Origin: Anaerobaca lacustris
Lineage (GTDB): Bacteria; Planctomycetota; Phycisphaerae; Sedimentisphaerales; Anaerobacaceae
Assembly: GCF_030012215.1 (NCBI RefSeq)
Contig: NZ_JASCXX010000020.1
Coordinates: 1 to 64,000, forward strand
Length of the DNA: 64,000 nucleotides
Direction of reading: 5' to 3'
Shown here: piece by piece, positions 50,822 to 56,913 of the stretch
Layout: every line of letters starts with the position of its first letter
How positions within the stretch are numbered: position 1 is the first letter of the stretch
Made by a program: the position numbers and the translations under genes
The notes under the pieces: model-generated
Databases searched by the model: none
Told to the model about the DNA's origin: nothing
What the model saw: the letters and a program-made list of their open reading frames with translations, nothing else

Positions 50822-50850
50822 TTGACGCAAGGGCCAAGCCGCGATATCCT
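50822..50850 (+). promoter_or_regulatory. Promoter of the truncated tRNA-Val gene
   Basis: TTGACG at 50822-50827 and TATCCT at 50845-50850 are 17 bases apart and end 13 bases before the tRNA 5' end, the spacing expected for a stable-RNA promoter. It shows that the tRNA was once a functional gene on this strand. Confidence 0.55.
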
Positions 50851-50862
50851 CACACACCAGCC

Positions 50863-50901
50863 GGGCGGTTAGCTCAGTCGGCTAGAGCACCTGCTTTACA
50901 C
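50863..50901 (+). pseudogene. 5' half of tRNA-Val(UAC), cut in the anticodon loop; likely attachment site
   Basis: GGGCGGTTAGCTCAGTCGGC and TAGAGCACCTGCTTTACAC give the acceptor 5' strand, a perfect D arm and the 5' half of the anticodon arm with anticodon TAC. After TTTACAC the expected GCAGG never appears; the sequence turns AT-richer (AATTCCGGAG...). No T arm or 3' acceptor strand is found downstream within the window. Anticodon loops of tRNA genes are standard integration sites, so 50895-50901 is the probable crossover. Confidence 0.7.
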
Positions 50902-51045
50902 AATTCCGGAGAATTGAGGCTATTTCGCAACTTCTTTTGATTTCAGCATTTACAGACTATCGGATATCGCAAGAATCGCCACTTTAGCACCTTTTGGTTG
51001 TAGTTTGGTTGTAGTTTTTTCGCGACAACCGGGAGTCAAAAAGGC

Positions 51046-51450
51046 TCATAATCCAAGGTGATTTTTGACCTTGGGAAACCGCCGGGGAGGGAGGGAGCGA
51101 GCAGGCGGCTTAAGTAGAGGTCTGACTTTCTTGGCTTCGAGATACTGGTTGAGGGCCGAGCGCCTGATCCGGTAGTGGCCTTTCTTTGCTGTGTCTCCGT
51201 CTTCACCGACAACAAGATCGACGGCTTCGAGTTCACCGTTGCGGATGAGCCGGTAGATGATACTCTTCGACAGCTTGAGTTCCTGAGAGATTTCATCGAC
51301 CGTCAGCCAATCTGACCGCTGTGGGGGTGACGCTGCTTGGATCATATCAAAGAAGCGGCCCAGGCTGTTCAGAAGATCTCTGCACACCGAGCAGCCGCCG
51401 GTATCTGCCGGGTAGTGTTCGTTCTTGTTGTCAAGGGATTGCGGTTTCAT
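51046..51450 (-). CDS. Small HTH (excisionase-like) protein
   Basis: The start at 51450 (ATG) is preferred over a GTG at 51480; neither has a strong ribosome site. The product of about 134 residues has an N-terminal part with CSVCRDLLNSLGRFFDMI. A helix-turn-helix of the excisionase/MerR-like type follows: WLTVDEISQELKLSKSIIYR, LIRNGELEAVDL, then GHYRIRRSALNQYLEAKK. Such proteins direct excision or repress element genes. Its 3' end contains a CCAAGGT/ACCTTGG hairpin (51055-51076). Confidence 0.8.
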   Translation of the reverse strand: MKPQSLDNKNEHYPADTGGCSVCRDLLNSLGRFFDMIQAASPPQRSDWLTVDEISQELKLSKSIIYRLIRNGELEAVDLVVGEDGDTAKKGHYRIRRSALNQYLEAKKVRPLLKPPARSLPPRRFPKVKNHLGL

Positions 51451-51554
51451 TGTTGTTGGTTGTCGTCTGGCGGCACCCACACATCAAAATCGCACTGTAC
51501 ACGCTGCTGCATGATTGAGTTGTTTCAACATCGTTCATCCGCCTGGCGAAGCCC

Positions 51555-52613
51555 TCATCCTGTCGGGCGTTGCTGGGATTCAAGCAATGTGCAGCCACCG
51601 TCCGGACAATACTGCTGCAACGCCGTACCGCAGGGTGGATAAGAAGGGTGCTGGCAGCCGTATCCGGCAGCCTTCTCGATGTCGTTGGGATCAAGTACCA
51701 GGTTGGGATCGTCGATCGCCCTAAGCCGGGCGATTATCTCCAGATAGTGCATATTCAGACCGGCGTAAGCACTGGCGAGACTGTAATACGTCGCATACCT
51801 GGTCCCATCGACAAGCACAGCGGATTCAATGGCTTGAACGCACGGCAGCATCGCCCGATGGTGCGTATGCTCTGCCGAGCCCTCGCTGCACTTTGGACAT
51901 CTGGTACGCTCTTGCTCAATGCGTTTGAGTTCGGCCGTGAACCACCAGGGCGCGTATTTGCCGATGCATGCCTCAAGATAGGAGTCCTCTGGGCGAGGCG
52001 ATGCCGCCATCGCCAGGATCTCATCGACCGGAAGCTCAGCGATGTCGGCTTCGGTCAGGGGGATCTTATACAATCCGCCTGGGCGACGAGAATTCGGAAA
52101 CGTCCATGCGTAGTCTGGTGAGTAGATGCTCAGATCGAGGCAACCAGGTTGAAAGTGGTCCCAGTGGGTGGCGATGTCGGCATAAAGGTCAAAGATCCAC
52201 GGCGAGTAAAAGGCGTCGAAGGTCTGCCAGGGTATGAGCAGTTCGAAGCCGTTTCGGCCATCGAAATACCAATGGCCACAGTCTTCTGGGGCCTGCATCG
52301 CAATAAGGATCTGTTCGTTTGCCTTGAGGAGGCAGCGTTTTGGCTCCTCCAGGTTGTCTTTTGAACGGGCGTGCAGATAAAAGGGGGCCACATACCTCGC
52401 TTGACGATTCGGTTCAGCATAGACACAGATGGAGTGCGACACTGCCGCGTTGTTGAACCGTTTCGGCCATGCCTCCATCGCTTCGTGATCATCGCTTCGG
52501 ATGAAGGCCCGTGCGACAATGGCGCCGCTGGGAGATTGTGCGATCAACTCAATCCAATCGAACTTGTCGTTGTGTCCGGTCAGTTCGTAACCGGTCGCTC
52601 GTTCACAGTCCAT
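51555..52613 (-). CDS. Catalytically degenerate PriS-PriL primase paralogue
   Basis: GGAGGA lies upstream of the ATG at 52613. The 352-residue protein aligns along its whole length with the primase encoded upstream. The catalytic DxD is replaced by His81-Ala-Arg83 (APFYLHARSKDNLEE), and the SGHKGFH motif by DGRNGFE (118-124), so both metal ligands and the nucleotide-binding His are gone. Asp160, LYKIPL and NPRPED-like blocks remain. The C-terminal PriL-type domain keeps its four Cys: Cys258 (MLPCVQAIES), Cys328, Cys336 (QQYC) and Cys341. An extra CPKC (239-242) near His residues may bind zinc. It probably serves as a structural or RNA/DNA-positioning partner. It follows the primase gene by 46 bases. 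Confidence 0.8.
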   Translation of the reverse strand: MDCERATGYELTGHNDKFDWIELIAQSPSGAIVARAFIRSDDHEAMEAWPKRFNNAAVSHSICVYAEPNRQARYVAPFYLHARSKDNLEEPKRCLLKANEQILIAMQAPEDCGHWYFDGRNGFELLIPWQTFDAFYSPWIFDLYADIATHWDHFQPGCLDLSIYSPDYAWTFPNSRRPGGLYKIPLTEADIAELPVDEILAMAASPRPEDSYLEACIGKYAPWWFTAELKRIEQERTRCPKCSEGSAEHTHHRAMLPCVQAIESAVLVDGTRYATYYSLASAYAGLNMHYLEIIARLRAIDDPNLVLDPNDIEKAAGYGCQHPSYPPCGTALQQYCPDGGCTLLESQQRPTG

Positions 52614-52659
52614 TGTGTGTTCCTCCTGGTTGTGTAGTGCACTTGCATGCTCGTGAAGA

Positions 52660-53724
52660 TCACTCCCCCGAAGCTTTGGCACTGTGCTTTCTGTTGTTCT
52701 TCAGCTTGGCATAGAAGCATTTCTCGGGCCGACAGTACTGGCGCAGTGATTCATCATCGCATCCCGGGAACCCGGAATGGTCGCTGGCCCATGCCACGGT
52801 TCGCTCAATATAGTCGGGATCCCGGATAGGATGCCGGCCATCAAGAGCTTCGATTTGTTCGTGGATCTCGTCCGGATGCATGCCAATGTACCGGTAGAAG
52901 CGGGCGAGGGATAAGTACGTCTGATGCCGTATCCCATCAGGAAGAGTAACCTCCTGGATAGCCTTGATGCACGGAGGCATGCGCCAACCGTCACGGAATG
53001 GTTTTGTGGTGCTCACCTGTCCTCTGGAGCCTCCATCCAGCTTTGCAGAAACAGCCAGCGCCCGCCTGTACCATTCAACGGCTTCCTCACACACTTGATG
53101 TCGGGCGAGCGAATCTTCAGGTCGTGGGTTCGCGGCCAGTTTCTTAATGCCATCAATGCTGATGTCCCGCAACTCTTCGTAGGACAGGGGGATCTTGAAC
53201 AGGCCACTCTTACTGTGCCTGGAAAGCAAAATTCTCCAGATTCGTTTACGGGTATATATGCTCTCATCGATGTGACACACACCGGCATCGCGAGCTCGGC
53301 GGGCCATTCTCCTATAGAGGCCCAGCGTGTAGGGCGAATGGAAGGCTCGAAATATCTCGGGGGCAACACTGATATGGAATCCTTTATGGCCGGAGAATGC
53401 GATATCCAGATTGTCTTGCGATAGCCGGATTCTATCCATAAGCATTTCGCACAAAGTGAGCGCGCTTCTCCGCGCCGCCTCGAGATCATCAGGGCAATCG
53501 ATGTCGAAGTGCATGGGAAGAATAAAAGGTGAGTTGTTATTCGGTTCCATATAGATGCCGACTGAACCGAACACGTTCGTGTTGAGGAAACGCCTTCTCC
53601 ATCCCGAAATACCAGTGTAATCGCCTTTGCGGACATAATGGCCCCGCACCATCTTGCCGTTGGGCAGGAGGGCGGCCAGCTCGATGTAGCCATAGGACAT
53701 GCTGTTCGCAAAGATATTTGTCAT
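52660..53724 (-). CDS. Fused PriS-PriL archaeo-eukaryotic primase
   Basis: The 354-residue protein has the AEP catalytic core: PMHFDIDCPDD with Asp74/Asp76, FSGHKGFHISV (111-120) with the nucleotide-binding His, and HIDESIYTRKRIWRI with Asp153. This continues as LLSRHSKSGLFKIPLSYEEL, matching the PriS consensus of Ser-Leu-His-x-Lys-Thr-Gly-Leu. From residue 248 the chain matches the PriL iron-sulfur domain: MPPCIKAIQEV (Cys252), GIRHQTYLSLARFYRYIGMH, PDEIHEQIEAL, then Cys322, Cys331 and Cys336 (QYCRPEKC). Both subunits of a eukaryal-type primase thus lie in one short chain, as in some plasmid primases. It should make primers for element replication. No helicase domain is fused. Confidence 0.85.
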   Translation of the reverse strand: MTNIFANSMSYGYIELAALLPNGKMVRGHYVRKGDYTGISGWRRRFLNTNVFGSVGIYMEPNNNSPFILPMHFDIDCPDDLEAARRSALTLCEMLMDRIRLSQDNLDIAFSGHKGFHISVAPEIFRAFHSPYTLGLYRRMARRARDAGVCHIDESIYTRKRIWRILLSRHSKSGLFKIPLSYEELRDISIDGIKKLAANPRPEDSLARHQVCEEAVEWYRRALAVSAKLDGGSRGQVSTTKPFRDGWRMPPCIKAIQEVTLPDGIRHQTYLSLARFYRYIGMHPDEIHEQIEALDGRHPIRDPDYIERTVAWASDHSGFPGCDDESLRQYCRPEKCFYAKLKNNRKHSAKASGE

Positions 53725-53791
53725 TGTCTTGCCTGGCGCTTTCCAAGCCTCAACCGAGGTCTTCTACCAGCGTCAATTGTCTCTTATCCGA

Positions 53792-54013
53792 GGCATGTCA
53801 CGTTGGACATGCCACTGCCATACGACTGATTTTCACATGACCGGGGCCAATGACCCCGGTGTCAGCGCTGACTGGCAAAGGTGATCTGTTTCGTTCACCG
53901 GCGGACACATCATTTTCGGCGCAGCATTCCTCTTTTTTCAGTGGACCAGCGCCACGCCGGCGGGTCGCTGCAATTCGACATGAAGTTCACACAAACGGGA
54001 CATCATTCGGACA
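53792..54013. other. Palindrome and repeat cluster, candidate replication origin
   Basis: The gap upstream of the primase gene carries three dyads. GGCATGTC/GACATGCC spans 53792-53813 with a 6-base loop, ACCGGGG/CCCCGGT spans 53840-53860, and the perfect palindrome GTCAGCGCTGAC spans 53861-53872. Two iteron-like copies follow: GTTCACCGGCGGACACATCA at 53893 and GTTCACACAAACGGGACATC at 53985. A third, GTTTACGCAAATTACACATC, lies at 54673. No coding sequence occupies 53725-54002. The arrangement fits an origin or a primase-gene operator region. Confidence 0.45.
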
Positions 54014-54344
54014 GTACCGATGGAGGAGCCTCGGAGCCATCAGTATCGGTCTGCGATGGGCCAACTCCTCTGTTTCTTTCCTCTATCGTGCTCGCCTGTT
54101 GTGATGCAGGAAGCCCATCGTATTCGTGACTGTGGTGATCTCTACGGACCGGCCCATACACCAGGAACAGCGCACACAAGCTGACGATACAGGCGGTAAT
54201 GATCGATGTTACGCCCATCAGACCAACCACGTCACAGACACGGTACTCACGGCCCATGGATTCCAGCAGGACGGCCAGGAGCACCATCATTATGAGCATC
54301 AGCGTCACAAGGACGACGACGATTGCAGACACGTACTCTTCCAT
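54003..54344 (-). CDS. Small two-TM protein of the element
   Basis: An excellent ribosome site (AAGGAG) sits before the ATG at 54344. The 113-residue product has two hydrophobic helices (VSAIVVVLVTLMLIMMVLLA and GVTSIITACIVSLCALFLVY) and a hydrophilic Ser/Thr/Glu-rich tail. I do not recognise a family. The stop codon at 54003 lies inside an iteron-like repeat copy. Confidence 0.7.
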   Translation of the reverse strand: MEEYVSAIVVVLVTLMLIMMVLLAVLLESMGREYRVCDVVGLMGVTSIITACIVSLCALFLVYGPVRRDHHSHEYDGLPASQQASTIEERNRGVGPSQTDTDGSEAPPSVLSE

Positions 54345-54683
54345 CTCTATCTCCTTCTTTTTGCTTTTCCAAAGTCTGGTTCTGTGGCACAACCCGATCC
54401 CCATGACGCGGGTGCTCTGTGTGCCGATGTGCAAGTTGGCTCGGCCATAGACCCATCATCGCAGATTTCCAACCGACCCAGCCGACACACGGCTGTCGTG
54501 AAACTGACTTCTGTGTGACTGGAAGGGGTGCTGCCGTTATCGGTATTGACAGGGCGGATGTGGTTTGTTTGGGCGGTTGTAGCGCTGAGGCATTTGACCA
54601 CAGAGACGCCGCTTCGCAGAATCTCCCTGTGAGCTGAATCAGCGAGGGAGGGGTGTTGGAATTTGACACGAAGTTTACGCAAA
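54345..54683. other. Non-coding stretch between element genes
   Basis: About 340 bases upstream of the two-TM gene. No frame in either strand shows motifs or a start signal. It ends with the third iteron-like repeat (54673-54700), which overlaps the 3' end of the next gene. A minus-strand promoter for the two-TM gene should lie here but none is convincing. Confidence 0.5.
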
Positions 54684-55133
54684 TTACACATCATTTTGAC
54701 GGTCCTGGTGTAAGTGGCGGAACAGATCCCGCAGGACTTCTCCTGGAGGTTGGCTTTTATTCAATCCGGTTGGGTATAAGTCGCGCATGGCCTGCCCGAC
54801 GGCCTTGGCGTTTACCTTGAGCCCCATGTTTCTGAGAGCCACTACCAGGTCATGATATTCGGCCCGGCGCTCGGTCCGAGCCGGGCGGCGGGTGCGGCGC
54901 TTATTGAACAGCACCGGCCGACCATGGAGACCAATGCCGGTCTTGCGGATGCGGAGGCATTCTTTCTGGAGATCGGACGGGTAGAAGGCCCGGTGCGTGC
55001 CCGAGCGGACTGGCGGCGGGAAGACCCCTTTCTTCACGAGTTGGTAGAGTCGTGCTCGGGAGAAGCCGAGCTTGCGGGCCATTTCTGTTACAGAGCATAT
55101 GGCCACACAGTCGCGATTCGCAGGTGCATCCAT
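54684..55133 (-). CDS. HTH DNA-binding protein of the element
   Basis: GGAG lies 8 bases before the ATG at 55133. The 149-residue protein has an N-terminal helix-turn-helix of the excisionase/AlpA type: CSVTEMARKLGFSRARLYQL, VKKGVFPPPVRSGTHRAFYP. A basic linker (LFNKRRTRRPARTERR) and a C-terminal helical part (LVVALRNMGLKVNAKAVGQA) follow. It probably regulates the element or binds the repeats. It is 13 bases downstream of the RuvB-like gene, so both share a transcript. The same fold occurs at 51046. Confidence 0.82.
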   Translation of the reverse strand: MDAPANRDCVAICSVTEMARKLGFSRARLYQLVKKGVFPPPVRSGTHRAFYPSDLQKECLRIRKTGIGLHGRPVLFNKRRTRRPARTERRAEYHDLVVALRNMGLKVNAKAVGQAMRDLYPTGLNKSQPPGEVLRDLFRHLHQDRQNDV

Positions 55134-55146
55134 GTTGTATACTCCG

Positions 55147-55840
55147 TTATCTGATGAGCCAGGCGGTCGTCTCGATGTGCCCACGGCCCTTGTCCGTAAG
55201 GATTCGTGTGGATGATTTGCCTTTGGTGATGAGATCTTCCCGAATCAGGTAGGGCTCGATGACTCCCTGGACGGTCAACGGCGGAAGCCCGAGTTTGGCG
55301 CTCAGAGTTCCCAGCGGGGCAGGGCCGCCCCGAGCCAGGATGCTGAGATAGCGACGGTCCGTCTCATCCAGTCCGAGTTCGTCAATCTCCATGTGATGGA
55401 AAGCCTCCTGTGCATCCACCAGCGTGATGATATTGCGGTCATGGCTGACGGCGACCTCCCAGCACGTTTGCAGGTTCCGGTGTAGGGCCTGGCGTGGCAT
55501 GGCTTTGGCACGGCGGGCGATCATCTGTAAGACCTCGTCGGACTCGTACTGCCAGCGGAGAGCGACTGCTCGCTGGCGTACAACCTCCACCAGGTCCTCG
55601 ACGGAGTAGTAATCGAATCGACAATGGATTCGCATTCGATCCCTCAACGCCTCCTGGAGCAAGTACTCGTGCGTCGTCGCGAGGATCATTGTGAACGGGG
55701 CGAGGCGCATAGCGTATCGGTGGCCCGAAGCGACAAAGCCCGGCACTCGTACGATCCCTTCGGAAAGGGCCGTCAGGAGCACATACTGGGCCTCTGAGTT
55801 CAAGCCCTGAGCCTCATCGATGAAGATGGTGGTGCCGGGG
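55147..55840 (-). pseudogene. RuvB-like Holliday-junction ATPase, 5'-truncated
   Basis: From about 55833 the minus strand reads TTIFIDEAQGLNSEAQYVLL (Walker B), FTMILATTHEYLLQEALRDR (sensor 1 and arginine finger), IARRAKAMPRQALHRNLQ (sensor 2), IDELGLDETDRRYLSILARG and VIEPYLIREDLITKG, the RuvB C-terminal winged helix. The normal first 100 residues with Walker A (GPPGLGKT) are absent. The in-frame codons upstream are the antisense of a FecR gene and carry no RuvB motif. The gene is therefore cut at the element boundary and should not hydrolyse ATP as it stands. RuvB on a mobile element points to its own recombination or replication needs. Confidence 0.8.
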
Positions 55841-56913
55841 CCAGAGGTTCCGTCTCCGTTCGGGTAGCCAAGGGTTCTTCCGGATTCATCGTCAGGACGC
55901 CGACGGGCACCGTCGTGGACTACGGTACGGAGTTTGGGGTCGTGGTGAACGGGTACGGCGAGACGGAGGCGTTCGTCTATGAAGGGAAGATCGGCCTTCG
56001 CAGTGGCTCGGACCCTGTGCGTTCCCTGGCTTCGCGCATTCTCACCCAGGGGCAAGCCGGAGCCGTGGATGCCTCCGGCAGGATTGTCGATCGGGACTTT
56101 CAGTCACGACAGGTGATTCGAGAAATGCCGGAGACCAGCGGCTTTGGCATTCCCGGCAAACGGTTCGACCTCGCGGATGCACTGGCAGGAGGCAACGGCT
56201 TTGGTACCGCAGATCCGAACCAGAAGGTGGATCTCCGGACGGCAAGTGTTTCCGGGCTCCGGCACAACGACGTCAATCCTCCGATTGTGGGAATCGTCGG
56301 TACGCCGGCCCCTGCCATACCCTTTGTCGACTTCCTGTTCATCGCCGATGGTAGCTCGGGCCCGGTTCCGGTCAGTTCTACAGGCCAGCGGTTCAGGGAA
56401 TGCCCCGACACGGACGGCAATGCGTTCGCCTACATCACCAACGGCAACTTCCCACGCCACATCCCCGGCGAGTTGATGGAGCAGGTTCTTGGTGGCGTCC
56501 GGTACGGCACACGCAGCAAACCGGCGATATCCATTCACGCCAATGCTGGGGTTACGTTTGATTTGCAGGCGATTCGCGCCAGTATGTCCGGCGTCCGCCT
56601 GGCGCAGTTTACGGGTTTATGCGGAATATCAAAGACGGCCGAGGCGACCCTACGGCGCGAAGGAGAACATGCCAGCCGGACCCGGGCCGACTTTTGGGTC
56701 CTGGTGGATGGTCAAGTCCGATTCCGTCGACAGGAAACGGAGGTACTGTCCGGTGTGACACGGGTCAGCGTCGAACTGCAGGATGACCATCGCTTCCTGA
56801 GCCTCATCGTGACGGATGGTGGCAACGGAAATGGCTTTGACTGGGGCATCTTTGCCGAGCCGGCCCTGAAACTGACACTGGATGAACAAGTGACGGATGG
56901 GTTGGGCGTGTAA
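55840..56913 (+). pseudogene. FecR/NPCBM-domain protein, 5'-truncated
   Basis: The frame is open from 55798, but FecR-like sequence begins near 55843 (GSVSVRVAKGSSGFIVRTPT, then VVDYGTEFGVVVNGYGETEA, VYEGKIGLRSG, LTQGQAGAVDASG). The C-terminal third is NPCBM-like (VSVELQDDHRFLSLIVTDGG, NGFDWGIFAEPALKLT). Planctomycete FecR proteins normally start with a cytoplasmic anti-sigma-like part and a membrane helix; both are missing. The GTG at 55915 lies inside the FecR domain and has no ribosome site. The loss coincides with the point where the RuvB-like gene is cut. Downstream host genes follow in the same direction. Confidence 0.78.

Follow-up and report, generated by a model that had tools for sequence, protein, structure and literature searches.

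What displaced the 5′ half of the tRNA-Val(UAC) gene found at 50863–50901 in the genome of Anaerobaca lacustris, and where are the rest of this gene and the opposite end of the inserted DNA? The locus lies in the window analyzed here, a stretch of 64,000 nucleotides that corresponds to bases 1–64000 of contig C20 (113,495 bases), from a 5.73-Mb assembly of 117 contigs that is 97.9% complete and 2.2% contaminated. The answer, with high probability, is that an element was inserted into the tRNA-Val gene, which it restored with a 5′ half of its own, and that C20 and a second contig, C15, carry the two ends of this element. A first-pass annotation of the window had proposed integrated mobile DNA with replication genes, a view that was supported.

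The tRNA-Val Scar and the Restored Gene

The left limit of the element is an attachment-site scar. On the plus strand, the native host promoter of the tRNA-Val gene (50822–50850; TTGACG, 17 base pairs (bp), TATCCT), which is kept at the uninterrupted loci of two congeneric genomes, G001 and G003, was followed by nucleotides 1–39 of a displaced tRNA-Val(UAC) at 50863–50901 (plus strand). This fragment was 100% identical to the same nucleotides of an intact tRNA-Val(UAC) at C15:3353–3426, its identity ended at nucleotide 40, and the exact left boundary of the element lies at 50901/50902. Hence, the tRNA-Val(UAC) with intact promoter and a cut at the anticodon loop, as first described, was borne out, with the cut placed just after the loop. 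A tRNA scan of the window called no tRNA at the scar, because the 3′ half is absent. Immediately inside the boundary, the left arm of the element (50902–51015, plus strand) consists of a conserved spacer and a pair of 9-bp repeats, GGTTGTAGT-TT-GGTTGTAGT, at 50996–51004 and 51007–51015, which are putative integrase arm sites; the same arm at the same distance was present at no fewer than eight scar ends of other genomes. The guanine plus cytosine (GC) content was 0.555 inside the element versus 0.620 in the left and 0.597 in the right flank, and all of the plausible inner genes were on the minus strand, in agreement with the earlier observation that content, strand bias and lower GC set this DNA apart from its flanks.

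The first 39 bases of the tRNA recurred once in the genome, at C15:3353–3391, which is the start of the intact gene, and no second intact tRNA-Val(UAC) was found in the assembly. The missing 3′ half, for which a search elsewhere in the assembly had been suggested, was thus located on C15, within the rebuilt gene. The DNA 5′ of this gene differed from the native promoter and carried a paired-repeat arm, GGTTGTAGTCAAGGTTGTAGT, 57 bp before the tRNA, and the GC content of C15:1–3352 was 0.551 versus 0.640 on the far side of the tRNA. A promoter scan found no sigma-70-type site between the arm and the restored tRNA. C15:1–3352 held the gene of a large serine recombinase, truncated where the contig stops, together with genes for a winged-helix protein, for AbiEi and AbiEii (a toxin-antitoxin pair) and for the N-terminal part of a tyrosine integrase. 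This integrase remnant comprised the N-terminal ~80 residues, was directed away from the tRNA and was 50.5% identical to the full-length integrase of G072, a genome from another genus of the same family. Recombinase genes of a tRNA-gene element were therefore observed on C15, and the relatives described below carried whole integrases. The C-terminus of the serine recombinase was not found elsewhere in the assembly.

The large serine recombinase and the winged-helix gene were recorded together (L010:1–1120 and L054:2845–5091), and in G072 a recombinase 88% identical was followed by a RepB/ParB-type gene. The serine recombinase shares its element end with the tyrosine integrase remnant, so that one element may carry recombinases of both types, or one element may be nested in another. 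Furthermore, a near-palindrome of the AAGTCTTTGTTTTAAAAGAACTT type reached exactly to base 1 of the restored tRNA at L010:3296–3352 and at the restored ends of L132, L137 and L212, and it may be an operator, a part of the promoter or an additional recombinase site.

The empty site was observed in the congeners. In both G001 and G003, the left flank was shared with the window (tRNA-Ala, nitroreductase) and the tRNA-Val beside it was uninterrupted, and both were without the primase and the serine recombinase; the comparison with related genomes that had been proposed thus gave a matching left side and a different right flank. Since the tRNA-Val of the congeners was uninterrupted and the DNA at the intact tRNA of C15 was element-like, the recombinase end very likely lies on C15 and was not lost. 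The previous idea of integrated DNA that had “lost its recombinase end” is probably incorrect, given the integrase remnant, the serine recombinase and the rebuilt tRNA-Val on C15. In G003, contigs C41 (L047:7531–7657) and C68 (L048:9235–9361) ended in the same ~127-base stretch across the tRNA-Val; therefore, these contigs are adjacent, the locus is uninterrupted, and the tRNA region breaks the assembly.

Recurrence in Other Planctomycetota

A survey of 84,980 species genomes looked for the arm pattern GGTTGTAGTN{2,3}GGTTGTAGT, and its counts refer to the matches listed; the pattern was also searched in 397 genomes of the class, 13 of which were positive. A reversed control pattern gave a handful of scattered single matches only. 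Outside the Planctomycetota, no such tRNA arrangement was present among the matches listed, which mostly resembled simple repeats.

An independent second case came from G072, where genes for a full-length integrase, an excisionase-like protein, a primase-like protein and the small membrane protein adjoined an intact tRNA-Tyr(GUA). The 5′ end of this tRNA (contig C165 of G072) faced the element, with GGTTGTAGTCAAGGTTGTAGT, identical to that of C15, 54 bp before it. On contig C277 of the same genome, nucleotides 1–43 of tRNA-Tyr (98% identical) were followed ~90 bases on by GCACCTTTTGGTTGTAGTTTGGTTGTAGT, as in the window. This anatomy recurred in the Planctomycetota. All of the distinct restored-type arms (11/11) were situated 53–64 bp upstream of an intact tRNA gene that shared their strand. 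At least 18 distinct scar-type arms were found, 13 of them behind a tRNA 5′ half, two at a contig end and three without a clear half, and the arm was ~95–105 bp inside the tRNA 5′ half in 13 of the 16 assessable ends.

The tRNAs used belonged to at least 12 isoacceptors: Val UAC, Tyr GUA, Ser UGA, Ser GCU, Ser CGA, Arg ACG, Arg UCG, Arg UCU, Arg CCU, Cys GCA, Lys UUU and Gln CUG; where a 5′ half stood alone, its anticodon was taken from the sequence. An intact tRNA and a fragment in the same orientation occurred together in the Val pair of C20 and C15 and in at least six further same-genome pairs, and in these seven or more scar/restored pairs identity was lost at nucleotide 40 or 41 of the tRNA, just past the anticodon loop. 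The fragment consisted of the 5′ half with the native promoter, and the rebuilt gene had element DNA upstream. Judged from sequence, every resolved case restores the 5′ half, the rare orientation.

Only two of seven pairs were found on a single contig, Arg UCU (L109) and Cys GCA (L229). The former was a decayed remnant with an insertion sequence. In the latter (L229:20–10566), 10.4 kb with hydrogenase-type (NuoEFG-like) genes separated the scar from the intact tRNA-Cys(GCA), and similar DNA with a degenerate arm was present upstream of both tRNA-Cys copies; a repeated insertion into an already rebuilt tRNA is the likely reading of this locus.

Additionally, viral and plasmid sequences were searched. 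The arm pattern gave no tRNA-linked end in the viral contigs, the integrase had no match in phage and plasmid collections or in IMG/VR, and the primase had no match in IMG/VR; the middle of the element is missing from the assembly.

The Integrase Family

The integrase is a PF00589/PHROG 1 protein, and its whole gene adjoined the restored tRNA in L055, L071, L132 and L208. Residue positions were assigned by profile alignment of five whole integrases (L055:11124–12425, L221:219–1361, L222:1137–2297, L232:1262–2365 and L067:585–1715) to IntI4, XerA and an archaeal XerC-like protein, with consistent placement. The canonical set of tyrosine recombinase residues (Arg I, Lys, His II, Arg II, His/Trp III, Tyr) was incomplete. 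The arginine of the GLR box (Arg I) was replaced in all five proteins, by glycine in four and by valine in one, a Kuenenia-type protein, and the histidine of the HxLR box (His II) was replaced by tyrosine or alanine, again in 5/5. The residues Lys, Arg II, His III and Tyr were retained. Elements whose integrases lack Arg I and His II nonetheless occupied many tRNA genes.

These proteins share with the lambda-type tyrosine integrases the arm repeats on both sides of the core, the N-terminal, SAM-like and catalytic domains, and the catalytic Lys, Arg II, His/Trp III and Tyr. They differ from other PF00589/PHROG 1 integrases of this type in the change of the GLR arginine to glycine or valine and of the HxLR histidine to tyrosine or alanine.

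Genes of the Element in the Window

The first gene behind the left arm encodes a helix-turn-helix, excisionase-like protein (51046–51480, minus strand; HTH_17, TIGR01764), homologues of which adjoined the integrase of G072 (65% identical) and were present at the scar end of L085 (63%). Two primase-like genes follow on the minus strand. The product of 52660–53724 is a primase of the archaeo-eukaryotic type, with both the acidic motif I (HFDIDC) and motif II (SGHKGFHISV, of the SGxxGFH form), a PHROG primase match of 4.9e-25, and matches to phage proteins annotated as “eukaryotic type DNA primase small subunit”. The product of 51555–52682 is a degenerate paralogue without the acidic motif and SGxxGFH; the two proteins were 30% identical, and their reading frames overlap by 23 bp. 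A structure prediction of the primase was too poor (predicted local distance difference test score of 48) and was not used. The primases of Thermus, Moorella and Bacillus phages share HFDIDC and SGHKGFH with 52660–53724 at an identity of 24–30%, but here the primase is a short stand-alone protein beside an overlapping paralogue that has neither motif.

A motif-complete primase was found together with a motif-poor paralogue in the window (51555–53724) and in L056 (44–1234 and 3238–4308), and the two proteins may act as a pair. Relatives of the motif-poor protein adjoined an integrase gene in G072 and in G055, and such relatives recurred by integrase and excisionase genes, with L055:13047–14180 and L057:5391–6518 among the loci of this group.

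The remaining genes, all on the minus strand, encode a small membrane protein adjoining the primase (54003–54434, start codon uncertain), with a 43% identical homologue by the G072 primase, a MerR/AlpA-type helix-turn-helix protein (54684–55184), and the C-terminal part of a RuvB-like AAA+ protein (55147–55841, the outer limit being approximate), which comprises Walker B, the lid and the winged helix and lacks the 5′ part of its gene.

The Junction Near 55840

The element DNA ended at a junction with unrelated chromosomal DNA at 55830–55845 (no strand assigned), which had no arm repeat and no tRNA and is not an attachment site. The RuvB-like protein matched RuvB_N only from profile position 86 on, in addition to the lid and winged helix; therefore, Walker A is missing and the AAA domain is incomplete. 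Beyond the junction, a FecR-NPCBM gene on the plus strand (55846–56913), in host-type DNA outside the element, also lacked its 5′ part: the FecR match covered positions 56–96 of 97, and the congener homologues, some of which had an extracytoplasmic function (ECF)-type sigma gene upstream, were longer by ~270 N-terminal residues. The nucleotide homology of FecR began at ~55845 and the similarity of the RuvB-like gene extended to about 55830–55841. The claim that both genes are cut near 55840 was thus confirmed, with the breaks within about 16 bp, but 55840 does not hold as the right limit of the element, since no arm repeat or tRNA is present there. The break lies within the RuvB-like gene of the element and reflects either a false join or a rearrangement rather than a terminus of the element. 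The 5′ part of FecR (expected at ~78% identity) was sought elsewhere in the assembly and not found, and a search for the RuvB-like 5′ part with Walker A, which had been recommended, was equally negative there.

An assembly artifact is the somewhat better explanation: a chimera in which a contig of the element was fused to an unrelated chromosomal contig from the same organism, with a genuine left junction. Both genes are cut within those few bases with no attachment site at the join, their 5′ parts occur nowhere else in the assembly, the C-terminus of the serine recombinase is likewise unbinned, and the distal end of the element is on another contig, so that no further assumption is needed; however, no repeat that could have caused a misjoin was visible at the junction. 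The earlier suggestion of a chimeric join is accordingly tenable at 55840 only. The left junction must be biological, because the same anatomy recurs in many genomes.

A real inversion or translocation with breaks inside the element and inside the FecR gene is less probable but a serious alternative. Gene order around the tRNA-Val differed among three congeners, so rearrangement is common there, and one unbinned contig with both missing 5′ parts would suffice; against it, the reciprocal product was not found in the assembly. A simple deletion, the “deletion junction” of the first-pass annotation, was disfavored, as it would have removed the distal end that is still present on C15.

Discussion

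Two paired-repeat arms lie on either side of the tRNA 5′ half and of the crossover in its anticodon loop; a divergent integrase gene is situated at the restored end. The attachment site of a circular form would then have the order integrase-side arm (paired GGTTGTAGT), upstream leader, copy of the tRNA 5′ half, crossover and second paired-repeat arm. On insertion, a tyrosine recombinase would exchange strands across the ~7-bp anticodon loop. The host promoter and 5′ half would remain as a dead scar (50822–50901), and the 5′ half of the element joined to the host 3′ half would give the intact tRNA (C15:3275–3426), presumably driven by element sequence. The element would now be split over C20 and C15, with its middle unbinned.

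Several points weigh against this reading. No sequence joins C20 to C15 in the assembly, and a search for an excised circular form found none. The DNA to the right of the tRNA in G001 and G003 is not hisA, and synteny therefore does not confirm C15 as the right flank. The C15 integrase is reduced to its N-terminal domain, and this copy of the element may be immobile as a result. Finally, three scar-type arms (L086:4013–4035, L135:4243 and L207:1520) had no recognizable tRNA half; they may be secondary sites, scars that have decayed or copies internal to an element.

The lack of right-flank synteny with the congeners would also fit two separate insertions of related elements, one leaving the C20 scar and the other the restored tRNA of C15, with the partner ends missing. 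The probable reuse of one tRNA in L229, where the region upstream of the scar itself looks element-derived, also speaks for it. Two insertions are nevertheless unlikely, as these arms marked a single scar and a single restored end in the genome and no second tRNA-Val(UAC) was found.

A standard 3′-restoring island was rejected, the scar being a 5′ half. Group I introns sit beside the anticodon in some bacterial tRNAs, the position that the cut adjoins here, but an intron in place of an element is extremely improbable and was rejected, since the window has no 3′ half, no Rfam intron was matched, the complete gene was located at another place and the arm repeats are the mark of an attachment site.

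The proposed insertion of one element into tRNA-Val, with its ends on C20 and C15, can be compared with known systems. In Islander, 3760 of the 3919 tRNA-gene islands belong to the usual class, in which the fragment left behind is a 3′ one and the native promoter is retained, and 159 have a 5′ tDNA fragment (PMC4383910). The latter share with the elements described here the intact tRNA and a fragment in the same orientation, the crossover at the anticodon and a tyrosine integrase by the intact gene. The lineage of the Planctomycetota is a variant of this already known, rare kind of island, and differs in that one integrase family leaves the 5′ fragment in all resolved cases, across 12 isoacceptors. 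A passage of PMC8371274, citing Williams 2002, presents the use of the 5′ half as a peculiarity of pTN3 in archaea that is seldom seen in bacteria. In pTN3, 41 bp are shared with the tRNA 5′ half, up to the anticodon, and the rebuilt tRNA is separated from its own promoter (PMC5495485), so that the attachment site and the loss of the tRNA's own promoter resemble those reported here (PMC5495485, PMC8371274). However, the site of pTN3 lies within the integrase gene, so that integration breaks this gene in two, whereas no such suicide integrase was observed here, the gene being whole by the restored tRNA in four relatives (L055, L071, L132 and L208). The hosts here are bacteria, and one lineage uses many different tRNAs.

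On balance, a Planctomycetota lineage appears to have fixed a reversed tRNA logic, in which the promoter-side half is always supplied, across the isoacceptors listed above and with a recombinase that lacks Arg I. The absence of Arg I from an apparently mobile family of tyrosine recombinases is a puzzle that can be tested, and the paired arm repeats offer a precise marker by which both ends of such elements can be located when a genome is fragmented. As one integrase lineage has switched targets many times independently and both ends can be read, what determines its orientation and which sequence drives the tRNA become testable as well. The half supplied by elements in tRNA genes is nearly always the 3′ one, which leaves an essential tRNA under the host promoter; a 5′-restoring lineage would instead put an essential tRNA under the control of the element in every host that it enters.

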